A DNA stretch of 64,000 bases from Aquihabitans sp. G128 (GTDB lineage Bacteria; Actinomycetota; Acidimicrobiia; Acidimicrobiales; Iamiaceae): assembly GCF_019048865.1 (NCBI RefSeq), contig NZ_CP077604.1, positions 1,240,001 through 1,304,000 of the forward strand. Direction: 5' to 3'. Of this stretch, positions 19,437-30,599 are shown piece after piece. The notes beneath the pieces were generated by a model that had not been told where the DNA came from, searched no databases, and saw only the letters and a list, made by a program, of their open reading frames with translations. The position numbers and the translations under genes are program-made. Within the stretch, counting starts at the first letter, position 1. Each line of letters starts with the position of its first letter.

Positions 19437-19820
<384 letters not shown>

Positions 19821-19903
19821 TCACCCCACCTCTGACCGGGGGGAAACGTCCCTAACCGGCCGAAGCGTTTAGCGAGGAGTCCGCACCGGCCTACGCTCAC
19901 GGT

Positions 19904-20125
19904 ATGAACGACGCTGATCGCTGCCCGGTCTGTGGCGGCTCCGATGTGTCCGTGCTCGCGAACGACGAGATCCTGGGCAACCACCTTCCGGTAGGTGTCG
20001 ACGGGAACCCAGCGAAGAGCTACGGGCGATGCATGGACCGGGATTGCACGGCCGAAGTCGTCCGTGATGCTGGCGGCACGATGCCGTGGCGGGAGCTCCC
20101 TCCACTCGCCCCGCCCGGGCTCTAG
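19904..20125 (+). CDS. Small zinc-ribbon-like protein
   Basis: A 73-residue protein starting MNDADRCPVCGGSDVSVLAN, with a CPVCGG knuckle at residues 7-12 and a second Cys pair in GRCMDRDCTAE near residues 43-48, a plausible four-Cys zinc site. It is otherwise unrecognised. It lies just inside the left end of the island, converging on the integrase remnant with a few bases of overlap. It could be a small regulatory or accessory factor of the element, but short length keeps confidence moderate. Confidence 0.5.
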   Translation: MNDADRCPVCGGSDVSVLANDEILGNHLPVGVDGNPAKSYGRCMDRDCTAEVVRDAGGTMPWRELPPLAPPGL

Positions 20126-20454
20126 CCGCTCAACTCATCGCTGTCGCTCGGTGGAGCGAACACCGCCTCGACCGCCGCCCGGGTCCGGTCCTCAGAGTCC
20201 GGCCACAAGTGGCTATAGGTGTCCAGCGTTTCCGAGGCTGACGCATGGCCGAGCCGCCCTTGGACCACCTTCACCGATTCCCCGTAGCGGATCAGCGCCG
20301 ACGCGTAGAAGTGGCGCAATGCGTGGAAGCCCGTCCCCGGCTCGAGGCCGACCGACTTCGCCACCGGGCGCCAGACGTCGGAAAAGCGGGTCCGCCGGAG
20401 CGCCGCGCCCTGGCCGTTCGAGAAGATCAGACGGTCGTCGCCCGCGAGAGGTAC
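20122..20454 (-). pseudogene. Truncated tyrosine recombinase/integrase (C-terminal part)
   Basis: The frame encodes the catalytic half of a phage-type integrase: DDRLIFSNGQGAALRRTRFSDVW, then GFHALRHFYASALIRYGESV (box II HxLRH with the first active-site His and Arg), GRLGHASASETLDTYSHLWP (GH and the Tyr nucleophile). The N-terminal core-binding domain and the first catalytic Arg are absent; upstream of about 20454 the sequence loses integrase character. It probably mediated insertion at the rnpB site next to it. Without the missing parts it should be inactive. Confidence 0.8.
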
Positions 20455-20811
20455 CGAACCCCGCCCACGCGTACAGACGGCTTGCGATGCACCCGAGCGC
20501 CCTGCTCATCGCGCTGCTGTGGAACGTTCAGCTCATGTGTCGCTATGCAGGGACGCTTCCCATGACAGACCCCGACGTAGGCCGCCGGCGTGCCGTCGAG
20601 CTAGCAGGAGATGCCGCTTCGTGGGTGCCCCGTACCGCCACGGCGGTCGGGGCCGTGATCGTGGCGGTTCGGCATTACCCAGCGCCGGCGGCGCCGCGAA
20701 GCCCACCAGACGGACCATTCGCGGAGCCGCCAACTTCGATGGCGACGACCAAGCTCCAAATGCTGATCCCCTGTCGGCGAAGGTGCCAGACTCCGGCAAG
20801 GATGGACGATC
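20455..20811. other. No confident gene between integrase remnant and hsdM
   Basis: About 360 bases with overlapping open frames in several registers, none with domain character. One forward frame (about 20486-20819) encodes a 111-residue protein with a short hydrophobic stretch, but it overlaps the hsdM start and has no clear ribosome binding site. It may be decayed integrase or excisionase sequence and should contain the promoter of the restriction operon. Confidence 0.4.
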
Positions 20812-22597
20812 GTGGCTAACCCTTCAGAGATACGCCGCTGGGCACTCGAAGCCGGGTATGAGGTGGGAGACCGCGGTCGCCTGCCTGCGGCGGTGGTGGG
20901 GGCGTGGAACGCCGACCACCCTGACGACCCCCTCGTGGAGGAGGTCGAGACGGCGACGGTTCCTGCCGTCCAAACAGCGCGCCCCAAAGTGGGCTCAGCG
21001 ACGCCAAGGCGGGCGACCGGGGAGCGACCGCCACGAAGCGCCAGGAGCCTGGAGGTCTTCCTTTGGGAGGCGGCCGACAAGATGCGTGGCAACCTCGAAC
21101 CCGCTGAGTACAAGCACGTTGCGCTGGGTTTGGTATTCCTCAAGTACGTCTCCGACGCCTTCCAGCAGCGACATGCCTTCCTCGTGGACGCAACGGCAGA
21201 CGAGACGTCCGAGTACTACGTGCCCAACGAACGTCGGCGCGAGGCAATCATTGAGTCGCGCGACGAGTACACAGCGGAGAACGTGTTCTGGGTGCCTCCT
21301 GAGGCTCGATGGGATTCGATTCAGGGGCTTGCCAAGCAGCCCAACATCGGGGTGCTTCTCGATAATGCTATGGATGCGATCGAGAAGGAGAACCCAACGC
21401 TTCGAGGTGTCCTTCCCAAGACCTATGCCAAGGCAGAGATCGACAAGCGACTCCTCGGTGAGCTTGTTGATCTGATCGGCAGCATTGGATTCACCGAGGT
21501 TGACCACGGCTCCGATGACGTACTCGGCAGGGTATACGAGTATTTCCTCGGTCGATTCGCCGCAGCCGAAGGCCGGAACGCCGGCGAGTTCTATACCCCC
21601 CCGATCCATCGTCCGGCTCCTTGTGGAGATGATCGAGCCCTTCAAGGGGCGGATCTACGACCCCTGCTGCGGCTCCGGCGGCATGTTCGTTCAGTCGGCC
21701 GAGTTCCTGGCCGCGCATGGCGGCGGTCGAGACGACCTCGCCATCTATGGCCAGGAGTTCGTCGCAGCGACCTGGCGCCTTGCCAGGATGAATCTGGCCC
21801 TGCGAGGGATCGAGGCCAATCTCGGCACACACTCGGCTGAAACATTTCACCGAGACCTGTTCCCAGATCTGCGCGCTGACTTCATCCTGGCCAACCCTCC
21901 TTTCAACAAGGACGACTGGTTCACGGAGACACTCCGGGAAGACGTCCGTTGGAAGTTCGGCGTTCCACCGACCTCCAACGCCAACTTCGCGTGGGTGCAG
22001 CACATCGTTCACCACCTAGCTCCGTCGGGAGTCGCAGGTCTTGTCCTCGCGAACGGATCTCTGTCGTCAACGCAGGGAGGCGAGGGGCCGATCCGTCAAG
22101 CTCTGGTCGAAGCGGATCTCGTGGATTGCATCGTGGCGATGCCCGAGAAGCTGTTCTTCAATACCGGCATACCCGTGTGCCTCTGGTTCATCACGAAGAA
22201 CCGTGCTTCGGGATCTGGCCGGGATCGCCGCGGGGAGGTGCTTTTTATCGACGCTCGTGGGCTCGGCCATATGGAGACCCGAACGGTCCGGGCGTTTGAC
22301 GACGATGACATCGCCCGTGTCGTGACCACGTATCAGGCCTGGCGCGGCAAGGATGCCGACCTCGTGTATGAGGACGTGGCTGGCTTCAGTAGGGCCGTCC
22401 CTATCGAAGAGATCGCCGAGCATTCCTTCGTACTGAACCCCGGCCGGTACGTAGGTGCCGAGCAAGCACCAATCGACACCGAGCCCACCGACGAGAAGAT
22501 TACCCGCCTCCGATCCCTAATCCTGGCCGAGTTCGACGAGGCAGATCGACTGGAGAAGATGATCCGAAGCCGTCTTGAAGGGATGACGGGTGTCTGA
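20812..22597 (+). CDS. hsdM: Type I restriction-modification methyltransferase HsdM with N-terminal Lsr2-like domain (frameshifted)
   Basis: About 594 residues if one base is removed. Residues 4-38 ([20 protein letters not shown]) match the C-terminal DNA-binding domain of Lsr2, including the RGR that enters AT-rich minor groove. After a linker comes the HsdM helical domain ([20 protein letters not shown]), GEFYTP, then the SAM motif [10 protein letters not shown] and the catalytic NPPF in [12 protein letters not shown]. The enzyme methylates adenine in the bipartite site read by HsdS. The C run at 21596-21602 appears one base too long, splitting EFYTP from [11 protein letters not shown], the normal family sequence. 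Whether this is an assembly error or inactivation is not decidable here. Confidence 0.85.
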
Positions 22598-23786
22598 CGA
22601 CACCTATGCCTCCCTCGGAGAGGTGCTCGAGCTGGTGATCGATCGTCGCGGGATCACCCCATCAAAGCTCGGCGGGCAATGGACAACGGCCGGCGTCCCG
22701 GTCATATCGGCGGTTCACGTGAAGCGCGGTCGAGTCCTTGACGACGTCCACCGCTTCGTCGATCGGCGAACATACGAGCGATGGATGCCCACACCGTTAA
22801 GAGCAGGCGACGTCCTCCTCACGTCAGAAGCTCCGCTCGGCGAGGTGGCCTTCGTCAACAACGACCTCGAGGCAGGTCTAGGCCAGCGCTTGTTCGGCCT
22901 CCGCGGCCAGGAGAGCGCTCTCGATGGCCGGTATCTCTACTATGCGCTCCGCTCGGACCCTGTGCAGAGCCAGCTTCGCGGACGCGCGACTGGCACGACC
23001 GTCAGTGGCATCCGCCAGTCAGAACTTCTCAAGGTCAAGATCAGGCTCCCTCCGCTTCACCGCCAGCAGGCGATCGGCCGGATGCTTGGGACGTTGGATG
23101 ACCGCATTGATTCAGACCTACGCCTGGCGACCCTTGCAGAGCAGTTACTCACCGCGTTAATCGGTGCCGCTCTGCCAGATACTCCGACCGTAACGTTGTC
23201 AGCGCTGGTATCCGTTTCTCGAGACATGGTGGATCCTGCGAATTGGGGATCGATGGAGGTCGACCACTTCTCGATACCCGCCTTCGATACCGACAGACTG
23301 CCGGCGCGGAGCGCTGGAGCGGAGATCAAGAGCGGTAAGTTCGCTCTGACCCAACCCAGCATCCTGCTGTCACGCCTCAACCCAAAGACGCCGCGGCTAT
23401 GGCATGCCGTGCCGAACAACGAAGTCGCAGCGGTGTGTTCCACCGAATTCCTAGTCTTGACCCCTCAGGACGGCGCCACGCTCGCCGACGTTTGGCTGGC
23501 ATGTTGCGACCCAGTCTTTCTCGAAGTGATGCAGGGCAGGGTTACGGGTACATCTGGAAGCCACCAACGCGTGCGTCCTGACGACGTCCTGTCGCTCGAG
23601 GTGGTCGATGCGCGACATCTCTCCGAGCAGCTCCGAGCAGAAGCCACCGATCTGCTGCACCTTGCACACCACCGACGCACTGAGGCTAGAGCGCTTGGTG
23701 TGCTCCGTGATGTCCTCCTTCCAGAACTCCTGTCGGGACGCTTCCTCGCTCCCGCTGGAATGAACCACGAGGAAGAGTCGGAATGA
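22590..23786 (+). CDS. hsdS: Type I restriction-modification specificity subunit HsdS
   Basis: A 398-residue subunit with two target-recognition halves separated by conserved helices. The first half ends with the classic [29 protein letters not shown], and the second ends [15 protein letters not shown]. The variable segments, roughly residues 10-140 and 195-330, should each read half of a bipartite DNA site. The GTG start overlaps the hsdM stop by eight bases, so translation is coupled. Cytoplasmic, in complex with HsdM and HsdR. Confidence 0.9.
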
Positions 23787-26700
23787 CCGAGGGCATCAGC
23801 GAGTCAGTCGTGGAGGAGGCCTGCCTCGAATGGTTTCGGGACATGGGTTACGCGACGGTGTCCGGCTCTGAGATCGCGCACGGTGTTCAGAACGAAGAGC
23901 GAGGATCGTGGAGTGATGTGATCTTGGTCCAGCGCTTGCGCTCCGCTGTGGAGCGCCTCAATCCCAGCCTCCAACAGGAGGCGATTGAGGCCGTCGTCGC
24001 AACCATCGTCCGACCGGAGACGCAAAGTCTGATAGCGGAGAACTTCCGTCTACATCGCTGCCTGACAGAAGGAATCACGGTCGATAGCCGAGCAGACGGC
24101 GGCGAGGTCCGGTACAGCCTCGCATGGGTGATCGACTTCGACCATCCGGAGCAAAACGACTGGCTCGTTGTCAATCAGATGACCATCACCGAGCTCGGCG
24201 GAAAGAGTCGGCGACCGGACGCTGTTGTGTTCGTCAACGGATTGCCGCTCGCAGTGCTCGAGCTCAAGAATGCTGGTGGGGAAAGCGCAACTGTAAAGGG
24301 GGCTTGGCAACAAATTCAGACGTACCGCCACGACGTTCCCAACCTATTCGCATCGAATGTGGTCTGTGTGGCCTCGGACGGGCTTCAAGCTCGCGTTGGT
24401 TCCTTTACAGCAGGCTGGGAGCACTTCGCGCCATGGAAGACGATCGACAGTCCTCAAGTTGCGGTAGGTCGCCCGGAACTCGAAACCCTGGTGCGAGGGG
24501 TGTTTCACCACGCTCAGTTTCTCGACATCCTTAGGCATTTCGTCCTTTTTTCTGATGAGCCGAGCGGCCTGATCAAACGTATCGCGAAGTATCACCAGTT
24601 CTGGGCGGTAAATGCAGCAGCCTCATCGGCGATTAGGGCTGCCGGACCCTCAGGCGACCGACGCGGCGGGGTGATTTGGCATACGCAGGGTTCCGGCAAG
24701 AGCATCGAAATGGTGCTACTAGCTGCGAAGCTCGCTCGCTCCCCTGAGATGGAAAACCCGACGCTTGTGTTCATCACGGATCGCAACGACCTTGATGATC
24801 AGCTGTTTGGAGAGGTCTTCAGCCCAGCCCGCATCCTTCCGGAGAATCCAGTCCAGGTGTCGAGTCGCGCCGAGCTCCGTTCGGTCCTCGATCGTTCCTC
24901 CGGTGGCATCGTGTTCACGACGATTCAGAAGTTTGCGCCCGATGTCGCCGGCGATGCTCACCCGAGGTTGACCGAGCGCCGGAACGTGGTGGTGATCGCG
25001 GATGAGGCACATCGCAGCCAGTACGACTTTCTGGATGGCTTTGCTCGACACCTTCGAGATGCGTTGCCCAATGCCACCTACCTCGGCTTCACCGGCACGC
25101 CGATCGAGTCCGGGGATAGGTCGACGGGCCAAGTGTTCGGCGACTACGTGGACGTCTACGACCTCACGCGGGCTGTTGAGGACGGGGCGACCGTCCCGAT
25201 CTACTACGAGTCTCGCCTCGCGCGTGTGGGACTCGTCGAGTCAGCTCTAGACGAGATGGATGCCGCTCTCGCTCAGGTGACAGAGGGACAGGAGATCGAC
25301 GAGGCCGAGCGGGCGAAATCCAGATGGTCTCGTGTGGAGGCGATAGTTGGGTCGAGCCAGCGACTTGATCTCGTTGCGGCAGACATCGTGAGCCACTGGG
25401 AGGCGAGGCGCGCCGGCTTGATCGGCAAGGCGATGATCGTATGCATGAGCCGCCGCATCTGCGTCGAGCTCTACGAACGGCTCGTCACCCTCCGCCCTGA
25501 CTGGCACGACGACGATCCGGCCTCCGGCGCAATCAAGGTAGTTATGACCGGGTCTGCTGCTGACCCCCTTTCCTTTCAGCCGCACCTCCATTCCAAGGAG
25601 ATCCAAAGGTCGATCAAAGCGCGGGCCAAGGATCCGAACGATCCGTTGGAGATCGTCATTGTTCGCGACATGTGGCTGACAGGCTTCGATGCTCCACCGG
25701 TCCATACGATGTACGTCGACAAGTACATGCAAGGAGCGGGCTTGATGCAGGCAATCGCTCGCGTCAATCGGACGTTTCGCGACAAGCCGGGCGGTCTGAT
25801 CGTTGACTACATGGGCATCGCCCACAAACTCCGTGAAGCTCTCGCTGCGTACTCGCCCTCCGATCAGGAACAAGCAGGAGTGCCGATCGAGAAGGTCGTC
25901 GACTTGCTGCGCGAGAAGCATGACGTCTGTTCCGGGATCCTTCACGGTCACCCCTGGTCCGCAGATCCGGGGTTGTCCGCCGGGAACCGGCTACAGGAAC
26001 TTGCCGGCGCGACCAACTTCGTCCTTGCTGACCCTGACCGTAAGCGCCGATTCCTCGACGAGGCGCTGGCACTTGTCAAGGCGTTCGCGCTGGCAGGAGC
26101 TCGGGACGAAGCGATTGCTCTTCGAGATGACGTTCGATTCTTCGCCGACATTCGTACGGCGGTCATCAAGCTCGAGGCTGCGGACGGCGGAGCGAGATCC
26201 ATGTCGCGGGATGGCGTCGAGGTTGATACAGCTATCGCGCAGATCGTCTCGGAGGCAGTCGCGGGTCGCGACGTAGTCGATATCTACACAGCCGCTGGTC
26301 TTGCACGGCCAGATGTGTCGGTCCTATCGGACGAATTTCTGGACCAACTCGCCACGAGCGACAAGCCTCACCTGCAGATCGCGGCGTTGCGACGGCTTCT
26401 TGAGGACCAGGTGCGCTCGGTTCGACGCACCAGTGTCGTTCAAGGTCGGCTGTTCTCCGAACTCCTCGAGGAGGCGATCAACCGATACACGAATCGAGCG
26501 CTCTCGACCGCCCAGGTCATCGCGGAGTTGGTCGAGATCGCCAAGCTCATGCGAGCCGCAGGTCAACGGGCAGCGGACCTCGGACTGAGTGCCACCGAGG
26601 TGGCGTTCTACGACGCTGTGTGTCAGAACGACACAGCGATCCTCGAGCTCGGCGACGAAACCCTGAAGACAATCGCGCGATCTCTCGTGATGACAATTCG

Positions 26701-26884
26701 CAACTCGGCCACCATTGACTGGGCCGTCAAGGAGTCCGTGCGCGCTGCGATGCGTTCGAGAATCCGACGTCTTCTTGCTCGCTATGACTACCCACCCGAC
26801 AAGGAGGCGCGCGCCATTGAGCTGATTCTGGAGCAGGCTGAGCTCGCAGCCAGGGACACCGACGCAGAATGGCCCGCGTCGTGA
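23783..26884 (+). CDS. hsdR: Type I restriction endonuclease subunit HsdR
   Basis: A 1033-residue motor-nuclease of normal length. The PD-(D/E)xK nuclease site is seen as RRPDAVVFVNGLPLAVLELKN (Asp146, Glu160, Lys162). Superfamily 2 helicase motifs follow: Walker A IWHTQGSGKSIEM, motif II DEAHRSQYDF, motif III LGFTGTPIE and a motif VI region MQAIARVNRTFRDKPGG. It translocates DNA from the HsdS site and cleaves at a distance. The ATG overlaps the hsdS stop (ATGA). All key residues I can see are intact, so restriction depends on the state of hsdM. The SIR2 gene follows after 22 bases. Confidence 0.93.
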   Translation: MTEGISESVVEEACLEWFRDMGYATVSGSEIAHGVQNEERGSWSDVILVQRLRSAVERLNPSLQQEAIEAVVATIVRPETQSLIAENFRLHRCLTEGITVDSRADGGEVRYSLAWVIDFDHPEQNDWLVVNQMTITELGGKSRRPDAVVFVNGLPLAVLELKNAGGESATVKGAWQQIQTYRHDVPNLFASNVVCVASDGLQARVGSFTAGWEHFAPWKTIDSPQVAVGRPELETLVRGVFHHAQFLDILRHFVLFSDEPSGLIKRIAKYHQFWAVNAAASSAIRAAGPSGDRRGGVIWHTQGSGKSIEMVLLAAKLARSPEMENPTLVFITDRNDLDDQLFGEVFSPARILPENPVQVSSRAELRSVLDRSSGGIVFTTIQKFAPDVAGDAHPRLTERRNVVVIADEAHRSQYDFLDGFARHLRDALPNATYLGFTGTPIESGDRSTGQVFGDYVDVYDLTRAVEDGATVPIYYESRLARVGLVESALDEMDAALAQVTEGQEIDEAERAKSRWSRVEAIVGSSQRLDLVAADIVSHWEARRAGLIGKAMIVCMSRRICVELYERLVTLRPDWHDDDPASGAIKVVMTGSAADPLSFQPHLHSKEIQRSIKARAKDPNDPLEIVIVRDMWLTGFDAPPVHTMYVDKYMQGAGLMQAIARVNRTFRDKPGGLIVDYMGIAHKLREALAAYSPSDQEQAGVPIEKVVDLLREKHDVCSGILHGHPWSADPGLSAGNRLQELAGATNFVLADPDRKRRFLDEALALVKAFALAGARDEAIALRDDVRFFADIRTAVIKLEAADGGARSMSRDGVEVDTAIAQIVSEAVAGRDVVDIYTAAGLARPDVSVLSDEFLDQLATSDKPHLQIAALRRLLEDQVRSVRRTSVVQGRLFSELLEEAINRYTNRALSTAQVIAELVEIAKLMRAAGQRAADLGLSATEVAFYDAVCQNDTAILELGDETLKTIARSLVMTIRNSATIDWAVKESVRAAMRSRIRRLLARYDYPPDKEARAIELILEQAELAARDTDAEWPAS

Positions 26885-26906: not shown

Positions 26907-27944
26907 GTGAACGACTCACGCGATGACGAGTTCGACGAGTCGCTGCGGCTGGAAGGGCCGCTGGTTGTGGCAGACGTAGAGCTCGATCCCGCGGATGCAC
27001 TGTGGTCACTCGATGAGGAGAGCTACAAGGCGAAGGCACTCGACTGGCAGGACGAGCGGAGAGCAGCCCACGAGCAACGCCTGGCCGAAATCCTCCAGTT
27101 CAAGGCCAACGGAGAGCGCTACAGCGCGCTGATGAAGGCAATTGAGGAGTCGCAGGTCGTTCCGTTCGTGGGGGCCGGTCTCTCCGCGCCATGTGGCGCA
27201 GCCACCTGGGGCGAGCTCATGCAGCAGCTGATCGACCACCTCAATACTCCGCTCGAGTCTGCTTCCGCCCTTCTAAGTGAGGGCCGCTTCGAGGAGGCGG
27301 CGGAGGCGATCGCAACGGCGCTGGGAGAGCCGCTCTTCCTGGAGCGCGTTCAGGCGAACATTGGATTGGCGCGCCATCTCCGAGGGGCGGTTCGTCATTT
27401 ACCGACCATCTTCGACGGTCTCACGATCACCACCAACCTCGACCGCATCCTGGAGAAGAGTGATACGGCCTTCGGCTCGCCGTACGCCGACATCTTCTAC
27501 CAGGCGATTCCGGACGCGTTCCAAGACCTTGTTTCTCAGAACCACCACATGTTGCTCAAACTCCATGGTGACGAGTTGATTGCTGAGACCTGGGTTCTGC
27601 GGTCGAGCCAATACGACGAGCGATATGGTCCGATGGAAGCGCCGGACCTCGAACGCCCGTGGCCAAGTGCGCTGGCCTGGGTCTATCGGGTGAAGTCAGT
27701 TCTCTTCATCGGCTGCAGCCTGTCGGTCGACCGCACTGTTCGAGTCTTCGAGGCGGTGATTGCTAAACATGGCGCAGTCACGGTTCCGAGTCACTACGCG
27801 TTTCTTCCACGCCCACTCGACGACGTCACCTGGGATGAGCGCGAGCTTCTGCTGGCCGAGCATCGGATCTACCCGATCTGGTACCCGCACGGAGATCATG
27901 AGTGCGTGGAGTCGCTGATTTTCGGCCTCATGGAGCGCGACTAG
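26907..27944 (+). CDS. SIR2-like domain protein, probable defence NADase
   Basis: A 345-residue protein. After a charged, coiled-coil-like N-terminus of about 75 residues comes a SIR2 domain: VVPFVGAGLSAPCGAATWGE with the NAD-binding GAG at 89-91, TTNLDRILE near 175-183, and LLKLHGD with His220 in the catalytic position. The following WVLRSSQYDERY matches the pattern of defence-type SIR2_2 proteins. Such domains deplete NAD when phage infection is sensed. The GTG start lies 22 bases after hsdR, so it is probably in the restriction operon. Whether it acts with the RM enzyme, with the convergent TIR gene or alone is unknown. Confidence 0.83.
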   Translation: MNDSRDDEFDESLRLEGPLVVADVELDPADALWSLDEESYKAKALDWQDERRAAHEQRLAEILQFKANGERYSALMKAIEESQVVPFVGAGLSAPCGAATWGELMQQLIDHLNTPLESASALLSEGRFEEAAEAIATALGEPLFLERVQANIGLARHLRGAVRHLPTIFDGLTITTNLDRILEKSDTAFGSPYADIFYQAIPDAFQDLVSQNHHMLLKLHGDELIAETWVLRSSQYDERYGPMEAPDLERPWPSALAWVYRVKSVLFIGCSLSVDRTVRVFEAVIAKHGAVTVPSHYAFLPRPLDDVTWDERELLLAEHRIYPIWYPHGDHECVESLIFGLMERD

Positions 27945-28142: not shown

Positions 28143-28973
28143 CTAGAACATGCGTAGCGGGGCCCAAGCCATCAATAGAGTCTTTTCCCCGACCGTCGAG
28201 AAATCAATCGTGACCTCTTGCTTGTCGCCTGAGCCGCGTAAGTCGAGCACAGTCCCAACGCCCCACTTCTTGTGCACGACCCGATCGCCAGGCTTTAGCT
28301 CGCTGGCGGGATTCCCATCAGCCCAGCGGCCCGCAATTTCCCACACGGCGTCGGCGTCGATCACGTACCCACGCTCGCTCCGCGACGGAGCCGAGGAGCT
28401 GAGCATGGCCTCGATGCCTTCGAGGCGGTTGTCCATAGCAACGAGTACATCCTCCGTTGAGGGAGGAGGCGGGGCTTCGTGGGTCGGCTCCGGAAGTTGG
28501 TCGAGCCGCTCACTGAACGCGGGCCATGCCGCCCCAAACGCAAGCTCGAGAATGTGGGACTCCACTTTCGCTTCCCCGAGCAAGTCGTTCAGATCCGCAA
28601 CCAATCTGTAGGTCCCATCTTTGTCAGCAGAAACCGAATTGAAGTGCTGTAGCGGGCTTCCCACCTGGCCGGGAGTCACGCCTATGAGAAAGGGAATGAC
28701 CCGCGCTCTTCCGAGCTCGCGGGCGATCGCTCCCGTCTCGAAGTGAATCCAACGGCTGTCCAGGTTGTCCTCCGTCAGCACGGCGACACAGAGCTCGTAG
28801 TGACCGAGAACCTCGCTGAGCTCATCGAACCAGCGAGTGCCACTGCGAATTGAGTCGCTCGAGAGCCAGGGGCTCACCATCTGAAGAGCTCGCGGCAAGA
28901 AGTCACTGAGTGCCTTAGCCGCTTCATGGGATCGGACCCCCGACCAACTGACGAAGATCGGCATGCGTTCCAT
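28143..28973 (-). CDS. TIR-domain protein with C-terminal PcrA/UvrD-like Tudor domain
   Basis: A 276-residue protein. Residues 4-150 form a TIR domain: PIFVSWSG at the first strand, WLSSDSIRSGTRWFDELSE, then VAVLTEDNLDSRWIHFETGA, where Glu79 is the expected NAD-cleaving residue. A Pro-rich linker and a short helical stretch (about 170-200) lead to residues 226-276, LKPGDRVVHKKWGVGTVLDL through KTLLMAWAPLRMF. This closely resembles the Tudor-like C-terminal domain of PcrA/UvrD helicases (GDRVxHxxFGxGxV...EKxLxxxxAPL), which contacts RNA polymerase. No helicase motors are present. It converges on the SIR2 gene, has native-like islands codon use, and sits at the right end of the island. It is probably an abortive-infection effector. 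Confidence 0.85.
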   Translation of the reverse strand: MERMPIFVSWSGVRSHEAAKALSDFLPRALQMVSPWLSSDSIRSGTRWFDELSEVLGHYELCVAVLTEDNLDSRWIHFETGAIARELGRARVIPFLIGVTPGQVGSPLQHFNSVSADKDGTYRLVADLNDLLGEAKVESHILELAFGAAWPAFSERLDQLPEPTHEAPPPPSTEDVLVAMDNRLEGIEAMLSSSAPSRSERGYVIDADAVWEIAGRWADGNPASELKPGDRVVHKKWGVGTVLDLRGSGDKQEVTIDFSTVGEKTLLMAWAPLRMF

Positions 28974-29118
28974 CGTGCGAGGCTAGCTAGCGGTGCGCGG
29001 ACAGTCCGCGAGCGACCCGGAATGGGCGAGAAGCGACGAGAAGTGACCGGCAGGAAATCAGCGGCTCAGCGGCCAGATTCCGAGGAACCCGCAGGTCACT
29101 GCTCCCCCGCTGACCGAT

Positions 29119-29152
29119 CCCCGCCTACAGACCGGCTCACCGTCACCACACC
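29119..29152 (+). repeat. Right attachment site (attR)
   Basis: A 34-base direct repeat of 19797-19830 with four substitutions. Some bases further left, near 29082, GAGGAACCCGCAGGT also resembles rnpB (GAGGAACCCTCAGGT near 19732), suggesting a decayed displaced rnpB 3' end. The region 28974-29177 holds no gene. Confidence 0.75.
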
Positions 29153-29177: not shown

Positions 29178-30122
29178 TCAGCGGGCGGTGGCCGCGATGA
29201 CGTCCGCAGCGTGGAGCATCTGGCGGCCGAACGGCTGGAGGCCGACCTCCTCGCACACGAGGCCGGTGGAGACCCGTTCCAGCACGCCCCACTCCCAGAT
29301 GGCGGTGGCGTCGAGGCCGGTGCGGGCCGCGAGCACGCGAGCGCGGTCGAAGGGGTCGCCCTGCAGCAGCTCCACCGGGTCCTCGCGCAAGAGCACGCCG
29401 AGGTCGCACTCGGGCTCGGCCCGCACGCCGTCGGGGTCGACCAGCTTGAAGCCGTCGTCGGCCTGCAGCGCGTTCCACTGGTGCACGTCGCCGTGGACGA
29501 GGACGGCCCGCTCGTCGTCGTGGGCGGCGACACGTCGCTCGGCGCAGGCCAGGGCATGGGCGACCGCCGCCTCCGAGCAGGGCCGTCCCAACCGGTCCCA
29601 GCGCTCGACGATGCCCGCAGCGATCTCGCCGGCGCGCTCGGCACCGCTCGGGAGGGCGAGCCCGGCGGGAACGGGGCGCCACAGCGCCGTAGCCGCGTCG
29701 GCGAGCACCTCGAGGCGACGGCCGAGCGGCAGGTCGAGGTCGCGCAGCGACGGGCCCAGGCGCTCTACCAGCAGGGCGCCGAGCGCCTCGTCGTGGCGCA
29801 GGAGGCGGGCGCAGCCCTCGCCCTGCGCCTGGCGCAGCACGGTGGCCTCCCGCTGAGCCGCTCCGCCCGCTCTCGGGACCACTACCTTCAGGACCGCCCG
29901 TCCGCCTCCTTCCAGGTCAACCGGAGCGACGAACCCCTCCGTGGCGTCGGGGAACGGCGAGCCGATGACCAGGCCCCACCGACCAGCCAGCTGGGCCAAC
30001 CGGGTCGGCAGCTCGTCGAGCCAGGCTTCGGCGCCCACGGCGATCGCCTTCCGGCGCACGGGGTCGGGCAGCGCCGCCAGGCTCGGGCTCGATGGTCGAT
30101 CGTCACCGGGGACAGGGGGCAC
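29178..30122 (-). CDS. APH-family phosphotransferase (streptomycin 6-kinase-like)
   Basis: About 314 residues of the aminoglycoside/streptomycin 6-phosphotransferase branch of kinase-like enzymes. Visible are WLDELPTRLAQLAGRWGLVIG at the N-terminus, VLKVV with the ATP-site Lys, the catalytic loop VLVHGDVHQWNALQ (HGDxHxxN with the base Asp) and the metal-binding LVDPDG. Proteins of this type may phosphorylate streptomycin-like antibiotics, but many chromosomal members have other small-molecule substrates, so resistance should not be assumed. No ATG is available; GTG 30122 is used and GTG 30059 is an alternative. Divergent from a small membrane protein gene across a repeat-rich spacer. Confidence 0.82.
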   Translation of the reverse strand: MPPVPGDDRPSSPSLAALPDPVRRKAIAVGAEAWLDELPTRLAQLAGRWGLVIGSPFPDATEGFVAPVDLEGGGRAVLKVVVPRAGGAAQREATVLRQAQGEGCARLLRHDEALGALLVERLGPSLRDLDLPLGRRLEVLADAATALWRPVPAGLALPSGAERAGEIAAGIVERWDRLGRPCSEAAVAHALACAERRVAAHDDERAVLVHGDVHQWNALQADDGFKLVDPDGVRAEPECDLGVLLREDPVELLQGDPFDRARVLAARTGLDATAIWEWGVLERVSTGLVCEEVGLQPFGRQMLHAADVIAATAR

Positions 30123-30150
30123 CGGACGAGCGTGGCACCGCCGCGCAGCG

Positions 30151-30230
30151 ACCTCGCAGCGACCTCGCAGCGAGTTCGCCTTGCCCTGCACCGCTCGACC
30201 GGCTCGGCGCTCGGGTTGTCGCTGCGAGGT
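30151..30230. promoter_or_regulatory. Tandem and inverted 12-bp repeats in a divergent spacer
   Basis: ACCTCGCAGCGA occurs twice in tandem (30151-30162 and 30162-30173, 11-bp spacing, near one helical turn) and once inverted as TCGCTGCGAGGT at 30219-30230. The repeats lie between the divergent APH and small membrane protein genes, so they are candidate operator sites. Confidence 0.45.
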
Positions 30231-30287
30231 GGGCACGTGGACCGGCCCGGCTTCTGACGGTGGCGAGCCTGCGGGTAGGCGTCGAGC

Positions 30288-30599
30288 ATGGGCGTGTTGG
30301 AGCGGTGGGACCGGAAGAACCAGGAGACCCTCGAGTACCACGAGGACCAGCGGCGGGAGGGGCCGAAGGGGCCCAGCGGCTGGCAGTGGGCTGGCACCTT
30401 CGGGGCCATGGCGGTACTGCGGCAGGTGCTCGACTCGGCGCTGGGGTTCGGGCCGACCATGGCCGTCCTGGTGACCTTGGCAGTCGTGCTGCTCGTGATC
30501 GGTGGGATCACCGCCCACCGCCAGCGCCAGCGCTGGCAGGCCCACCGGTCGGGCCGCAGCGCCCCAGCCCAGGGCTCGGAGCCCCGCTCCGCCTCGTAG
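30288..30599 (+). CDS. Small single- or two-helix membrane protein
   Basis: A 103-residue protein with a charged N-terminus (MGVLERWDRKNQETLEYHED), a weak hydrophobic stretch near residues 34-45 and a strong helix AVLVTLAVVLLVIGGITA at about 59-76, followed by a basic tail. Not recognised. It is followed closely by the MFS transporter gene (48 bases), so the two may be co-transcribed. Confidence 0.6.
   Translation: MGVLERWDRKNQETLEYHEDQRREGPKGPSGWQWAGTFGAMAVLRQVLDSALGFGPTMAVLVTLAVVLLVIGGITAHRQRQRWQAHRSGRSAPAQGSEPRSAS

Follow-up and report, generated by a model that had tools for sequence, protein, structure and literature searches.

A gene at the right edge of a likely mobile island encodes a protein, here called TIR-Tudor, in which a TIR domain of the TIR-TM phage-defence family is joined to the C-terminal Tudor domain of PcrA/UvrD-type helicases. 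The gene lies in a window of 64,000 nucleotides, by which we mean the whole stretch of DNA that was analyzed. As the best explanation, we tentatively propose that TIR-Tudor is a predicted NAD+-consuming TIR effector that would be tethered by its Tudor domain to host proteins that bind PcrA. To our knowledge, how infection is recognized is known for few single-gene TIR proteins. In TIR-Tudor, the part that differs from its relatives is a domain for which structures have been solved, binding residues mapped, and partners identified; therefore, the trigger can be guessed and is directly testable by point mutants. If the proposal is right, immune effectors can park on the DNA-repair or transcription machinery, or be baited, by means of a borrowed helicase tail. 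The gene and its main parts are as follows.

28143 to 28973, minus strand: TIR-Tudor gene, 276 amino acids (P0001; open reading frame, Pfam, structure model)
28494 to 28973, minus strand: TIR domain, residues 1-160, TIR-TM family (PF13676; PADLOC PDLC03016, 142 bits)
28737 to 28751, minus strand: W75 to Glu79 of the TIR domain (W...E.GA in 121 of 121 proteins)
28392 to 28457, minus strand: predicted helix, residues 173-194 (structure model; helix 175-200 in the relative P0005)
28146 to 28298, minus strand: PcrA/UvrD-type Tudor domain, residues 226-276 (PF21196; PDB 5dma; Foldseek)

Both domain models, PF13676 (TIR) and PF21196 (Tudor), match a single open reading frame above their curated Pfam cut-offs, with PF21196 at 60.4 bits against a cut-off of 23.9. 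The modelled Tudor domain superimposes on solved PcrA/UvrD tails with TM scores to the target of 0.88-0.91 (Foldseek), and its best structural match is 7egs, a UvrD tail solved with a lobe of the E. coli polymerase. The initial annotation had read these two domains in one protein and had named the fold of the PcrA C-terminal domain as the comparison by which the tail should be judged; the profile and structural matches confirm that reading. The PcrA/UvrD Tudor domain (PDB 5dma, 7egs, and 9dqs) resembles the tail in sequence, fold, and groove residues, but it sits on a helicase, whereas the tail of TIR-Tudor sits on a TIR domain with no helicase. Solved structures are also matched by the TIR half. 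The VIA-align rows cover the TIR half only, and the identity of the Tudor domain rests on PF21196, PDB 5dma, and Foldseek; the structure model is silent on oligomers and partner contacts. Promoter and terminator scans returned nothing above chance.

The TIR half matches the PADLOC TIR-TM profile over residues 4-184 (profile positions 1-181 of 293), and the same profile is matched by all 62 family members scanned, query included. The W...E.GA motif occurs together with the TIR-half match in 121/121 fetched family proteins, again counting the query, which agrees with the earlier designation of Glu79 as the probable catalytic residue. TIR-Tudor is predicted to be an NAD+-consuming enzyme. The TIR-TM system of the P2-like phage AC1 (PDLC03016; PMC9122126) belongs to the same TIR family: its TIR protein (L034) scores 393 bits against TIR-TM, is 34.8% identical to TIR-Tudor over query residues 4-160, and matches profile positions 1-286, whereas TIR-Tudor has no match to positions 182-293. 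Three neighboring genes in the AC1 record match TIR-TM, 2TM-TIR, and 1TM-TIR, and E. coli C carrying the three cloned genes is reported to be protected from lambda, LF82_P8, and P2 (PMC9122126). Other relatives of the TIR half lie between the antiterminator Q and holin genes of phage mEp390 and, in a 1.3-Mb plasmid record of E. coli, within a region that resembles a prophage. The AC1 system thus has the family's own C-terminal part and two membrane partners, whereas TIR-Tudor has a Tudor barrel. Neither 1TM-TIR nor 2TM-TIR was matched among the four TIR-Tudor neighbor proteins scanned with PADLOC, which counts against the tethering proposal, given that the tested relative has membrane partners. 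A genome-wide search for both models also gave no match, but it gave none in any control genome either and is a weak search. The earlier description of TIR-Tudor as a stand-alone effector agrees with its gene surroundings but sits less easily with its best-studied relative, which was tested together with two membrane partners.

The fusion is rare. When 5.8 billion proteins were searched with the full-length sequence, four matched, two of which, including the query, carry both domains. The second, P0002, is 276 amino acids long and 62% identical to the query, so the search for further TIR proteins with this tail, proposed in the initial annotation, yielded one in which both domains are again fused. 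A profile of the TIR family, which is a large one, gave 1,958 proteins at an E value of 1e-8 or better from 8,000 candidates scored, and among the 120 listed of these matches PF21196 was found in 2. Likewise, a tail match was found in 2 of the 121 fetched family proteins (query included) and PF21196 in 2 of the 62 scanned. The model of the relative P0005 has helices at residues 175-281, where P0001 has its Tudor domain, and a disordered end. From these sequences and models, the Tudor domain is best described as a C-terminal swap, replacing the C-terminal part of the TIR relatives; the predicted helix at residues 173-194 may serve for self-association.

Searches of other collections separated the two halves. 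The TIR half occurred in seven of the eight matching plasmid records and the tail half in the other one, and among six matching phage records the halves were divided four to two; no record held both. Genome contigs searched with the fusion gave no confirmed match, and those searched with the tail gave three loci, all of them helicase frames of 709-726 residues. A protein search with the tail alone returned only the query and must be insensitive, because P0002 was not even returned. Across 397 genomes of the order, the TIR half was found in the host only, among the matches listed; the short Tudor frames examined there were pieces of helicases (seven fetched and L029), and two further Tudor frames (L008 and L032) were cut by contig ends. 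Among the matches listed for 396 genomes of the phylum, the TIR half occurs in three other genomes, in each case lacking the tail, with frames read in two. The literature that we searched held no description of a TIR-Tudor fusion, in line with the initial annotation, which had not recognized the pairing from described TIR systems.

TIR-Tudor is the last gene of an island with borders marked by a repeat of the 3' end of rnpB. The features of the island other than TIR-Tudor are as follows.

19439 to 19821, plus strand: RNase P RNA gene, rnpB (RF00010, 186.2 bits)
19797 to 19825, plus strand: left copy of the repeat core, at the rnpB 3' end (repeat search)
20122 to 20505, minus strand: tyrosine integrase, C-terminal fragment only (PF00589, 46.8 bits, profile 92-168 of 172)
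20812 to 22597, plus strand: hsdM region with an Lsr2-like N-terminal stretch, split over two open reading frames (Pfam)
22590 to 23786, plus strand: HsdS (PF01420; PADLOC)
23783 to 26884, plus strand: HsdR (TIGR00348, 573 bits)
26907 to 27944, plus strand: SIR2-domain protein (PF13289; ThsA-like match, PADLOC)
29119 to 29147, plus strand: right copy of the repeat core, 146 bases past the TIR-Tudor start (repeat search)

A 40-base stretch at the 3' end of rnpB (19791-19830) has a second copy, 85% identical, at 29113-29152, and the 29-base core occurs at these two places only in the whole genome at up to three mismatches. The GC content is about 59-63% at about 21-28.9 kb (about 61% for the island), about 69% at 19-20.5 kb, and 73-78% outside. 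The integrase fragment follows rnpB, the rnpB 3' end is the likely attachment site, and the content (type I restriction-modification, SIR2, and TIR-Tudor) fits a defence island that entered there and is likely mobile. Each of 10 other rnpB loci of the genus has, next to rnpB, a homologue of the left-hand neighbor that rnpB has here; it stands upstream and on the same strand in 8, as in the host, and on the other side in 2 (L111 and L112). The integrase fragment has no match in these 10 loci, of which L109 and L114 hold almost nothing downstream. Nor are the proteins encoded to the right of the island matched in the rnpB loci of the genus, and the empty-site comparison therefore concerns the left side. 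In one locus of the genus (L106), 92 bases from the 3' part of rnpB recur about 1.4 kb downstream; a further insertion at that place would leave such a copy, and rnpB is possibly a recurrent integration site in the genus. Just outside the island, positions 29178-30545 encode an aminoglycoside/hydroxyurea kinase-like protein (PF04655), also unmatched in the same-genus rnpB loci.

The SIR2 gene begins 22 bases past HsdR and stands tail to tail with TIR-Tudor; given that spacing, it is possibly read together with the type I restriction-modification genes. Its product matches the PADLOC ThsA model over positions 74-306 (7.2e-14), which raises the idea of a Thoeris-like pair in which the SIR2 protein is activated by a cyclic ADP-ribose signal from the TIR domain; a messenger was likewise suggested by the AC1 authors for their TIR protein (PMC9122126). 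We consider such a pair very unlikely. Thoeris combines a ThsB-type TIR protein with a SIR2-SLOG ThsA, and neither type was recognized here: for the SIR2 protein (SIR2_2), Pfam matches at an E value of 1 include no SLOG domain, and for the TIR half, PADLOC matches at 0.1 include no ThsB model. NCBIfam returned only ThcB4, at an E value of 0.013 and 14.3 bits against a cut-off of 220. Moreover, the two genes face each other, and the SIR2 gene reads on from HsdR.

The defence neighbors and island borders around TIR-Tudor count in favor of the tethering proposal, and the split hsdM counts against it. The hsdM gene lies in two overlapping frames, the first with an Lsr2-like domain (PF23359) and HsdM_N and the second with most of N6_Mtase, which reflects either a broken, decayed gene or a sequencing error. 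This split gene and the integrase fragment, as signs of island decay, together with the finding of only two members, would suit a neutral tail, that is, a Tudor domain picked up by chance that only stabilizes the protein or helps it associate with itself. The pattern of conservation makes that quite improbable. Between P0001 and P0002, identical positions number 113/160 in the TIR domain, 25/63 in the linker, and 35/51 in the Tudor domain, so that the tail is 69% identical and the linker 40%, and the groove is intact in both. Both domains thus seem to have been kept by selection while the linker drifted, a conclusion that rests on one pair since the searches found only two members.

The tail most likely came from a PcrA of this order, although not clearly from that of this genome. 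Against one profile, the PcrA tails of eight same-genus genomes, including the host, score 58.3-72.8 bits, and PcrA tails outside the order reach at most 53.2 bits among the matches listed; other PcrA tails of the order score from 65.6 bits downward, among the matches listed, and because many of them fall below 53 bits, the lineage origin is a tendency and not a proof. The best identity of the tail is 69%, to a PcrA tail from a different family within the order, compared with 65% to the host PcrA tail and 49% to 5dma. The host PcrA frame itself (L054, G000:C1:3927000-3931300) carries an insert after its VGDSDQ motif that starts with CLLPGTLVRTPTGEVPIESI and ends with VVHN before SIYKFRGADIRN, and which we take to be an intein.

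The resemblance to the PcrA of this lineage is also what would be expected of bait. Decoy domains built into plant NLR receptors follow a similar logic. Applied to TIR-Tudor, a phage protein that targets the PcrA/UvrD tail, or that imitates one of the partners of this tail, so as to take over repair or transcription would seize the tail of the TIR protein instead and thereby set off the destruction of NAD+. We regard an integrated decoy of this kind as the main rival to tethering, since the two share one anatomy, and as possible but unlikely. The tail occupies the very part in which family members differ, and its groove residues are all kept although about one-third of its positions differ from the host PcrA tail. 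However, no viral contig was confirmed as a match to the fusion or to the tail; such searches detect relatives of the bait and not its ligand.

The tethering proposal depends on the groove of the Tudor domain, which is made up of the following residues.

28176 to 28274, minus strand: span of the groove residues (alignment with G. stearothermophilus PcrA)
28272 to 28274, minus strand: H234, equivalent to PcrA H681
28263 to 28265, minus strand: W237, equivalent to PcrA W684
28200 to 28202, minus strand: F258, equivalent to PcrA F705
28182 to 28184, minus strand: K264, equivalent to PcrA K712
28176 to 28178, minus strand: L266, equivalent to PcrA L714

In G. stearothermophilus PcrA, each of the substitutions H681A, W684A, K712A, and L714A is reported to cause a severe loss of RNA polymerase binding, and W684 and F705 are described as cage-like (PMC5397179). 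The four residues required for binding are all present in TIR-Tudor (H234, W237, K264, and L266). Together with F258, they are invariant across the two TIR-Tudor proteins and all 30 aligned PcrA tails of the order, a set of the 29 other best-scoring tails plus that of the host and not a random sample. The groove can drift in actinobacteria: at the positions of W237 and K264, M. smegmatis UvrD1 (9dqs) carries Y and V. UvrD1 thus lacks two groove residues that the PcrA proteins of the order keep, while the RpoB of the host lacks the SI1 motif.

That motif, [VIL]-D-x-x-T-G-E-[VIL]-[VILT], lies in the SI1 insert of RpoB as the partner site of the helicase and is shown for RpoB and UvrB (PMC8318588). 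The initial annotation had suggested that TIR-Tudor may be docked on RNA polymerase or transcribed DNA and thereby sense phage takeover of transcription; on RNA polymerase, the tail would hold the TIR domain on RpoB. The conservation of every residue identified by the PcrA binding mutants would suit such docking, as would the top structural match to 7egs, but for this host the claim is not upheld, and we judge it quite unlikely. The host RpoB frame has no partner motif, its TGE triplets occurring in INANTGEIK and NGRTGEAYD, and it skips positions 212-304 of TIGR02013. Its best PDB chains are polymerases of Streptomyces and Mycobacterium, in keeping with an actinobacterial host. NusG was considered as an alternative carrier, since the N-terminal extension of the host protein (L055) has an exact motif, VDPETGEIL; none of 30 fetched NusG loci of the order has the motif on either strand, so the NusG motif looks accidental, and this candidate was set aside. 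A degenerate DNA search of the host genome for the motif, with a pattern that leaves out TTA/TTG leucines, found eight places; the strict motif is encoded at two of them, one in NusG and the other in an unrelated protein. Host UvrB has a near match, FDPLTGETL, in which seven of the nine positions agree with the published pattern and two do not (F and T, each in place of [VIL]). With no motif in RpoB and a near match in UvrB, UvrB or something else is a better guess for the partner than RNA polymerase. The two departures in UvrB and the missing RpoB motif both count against tethering.

Under the tethering proposal, the Tudor domain in a resting cell would hold the TIR domain on a TGE-type hairpin, most likely that of UvrB. 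Upon infection, repair and transcription complexes may accumulate on foreign or damaged DNA, or phage proteins may disturb them, and several TIR-Tudor copies would then gather. The TIR domains could pair through their active-site interface, and cleavage of NAD+ would stop both cell and phage. A precedent for a non-TIR domain that acts as a docking sensor is SpbK of B. subtilis, in which the N-terminal domain is reported to bind phage portals and drive TIR clustering (PMC12847820). The docking domain of SpbK is an N-terminal four-helix bundle placed on the phage portal, whereas that of TIR-Tudor would be a C-terminal Tudor domain. DinX of M. tuberculosis, like TIR-Tudor, is a nonhelicase protein with a PcrA/UvrD-type Tudor domain at its C terminus, through which it is proposed to reach RNA polymerase (PMC6511836); DinX is a repair polymerase, whereas TIR-Tudor is a predicted immune effector. 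PADLOC also matches the tail weakly with the C termini of two large defence proteins, TmtA (0.0017) and DpdF (0.018), and other defence proteins may therefore carry similar tails.
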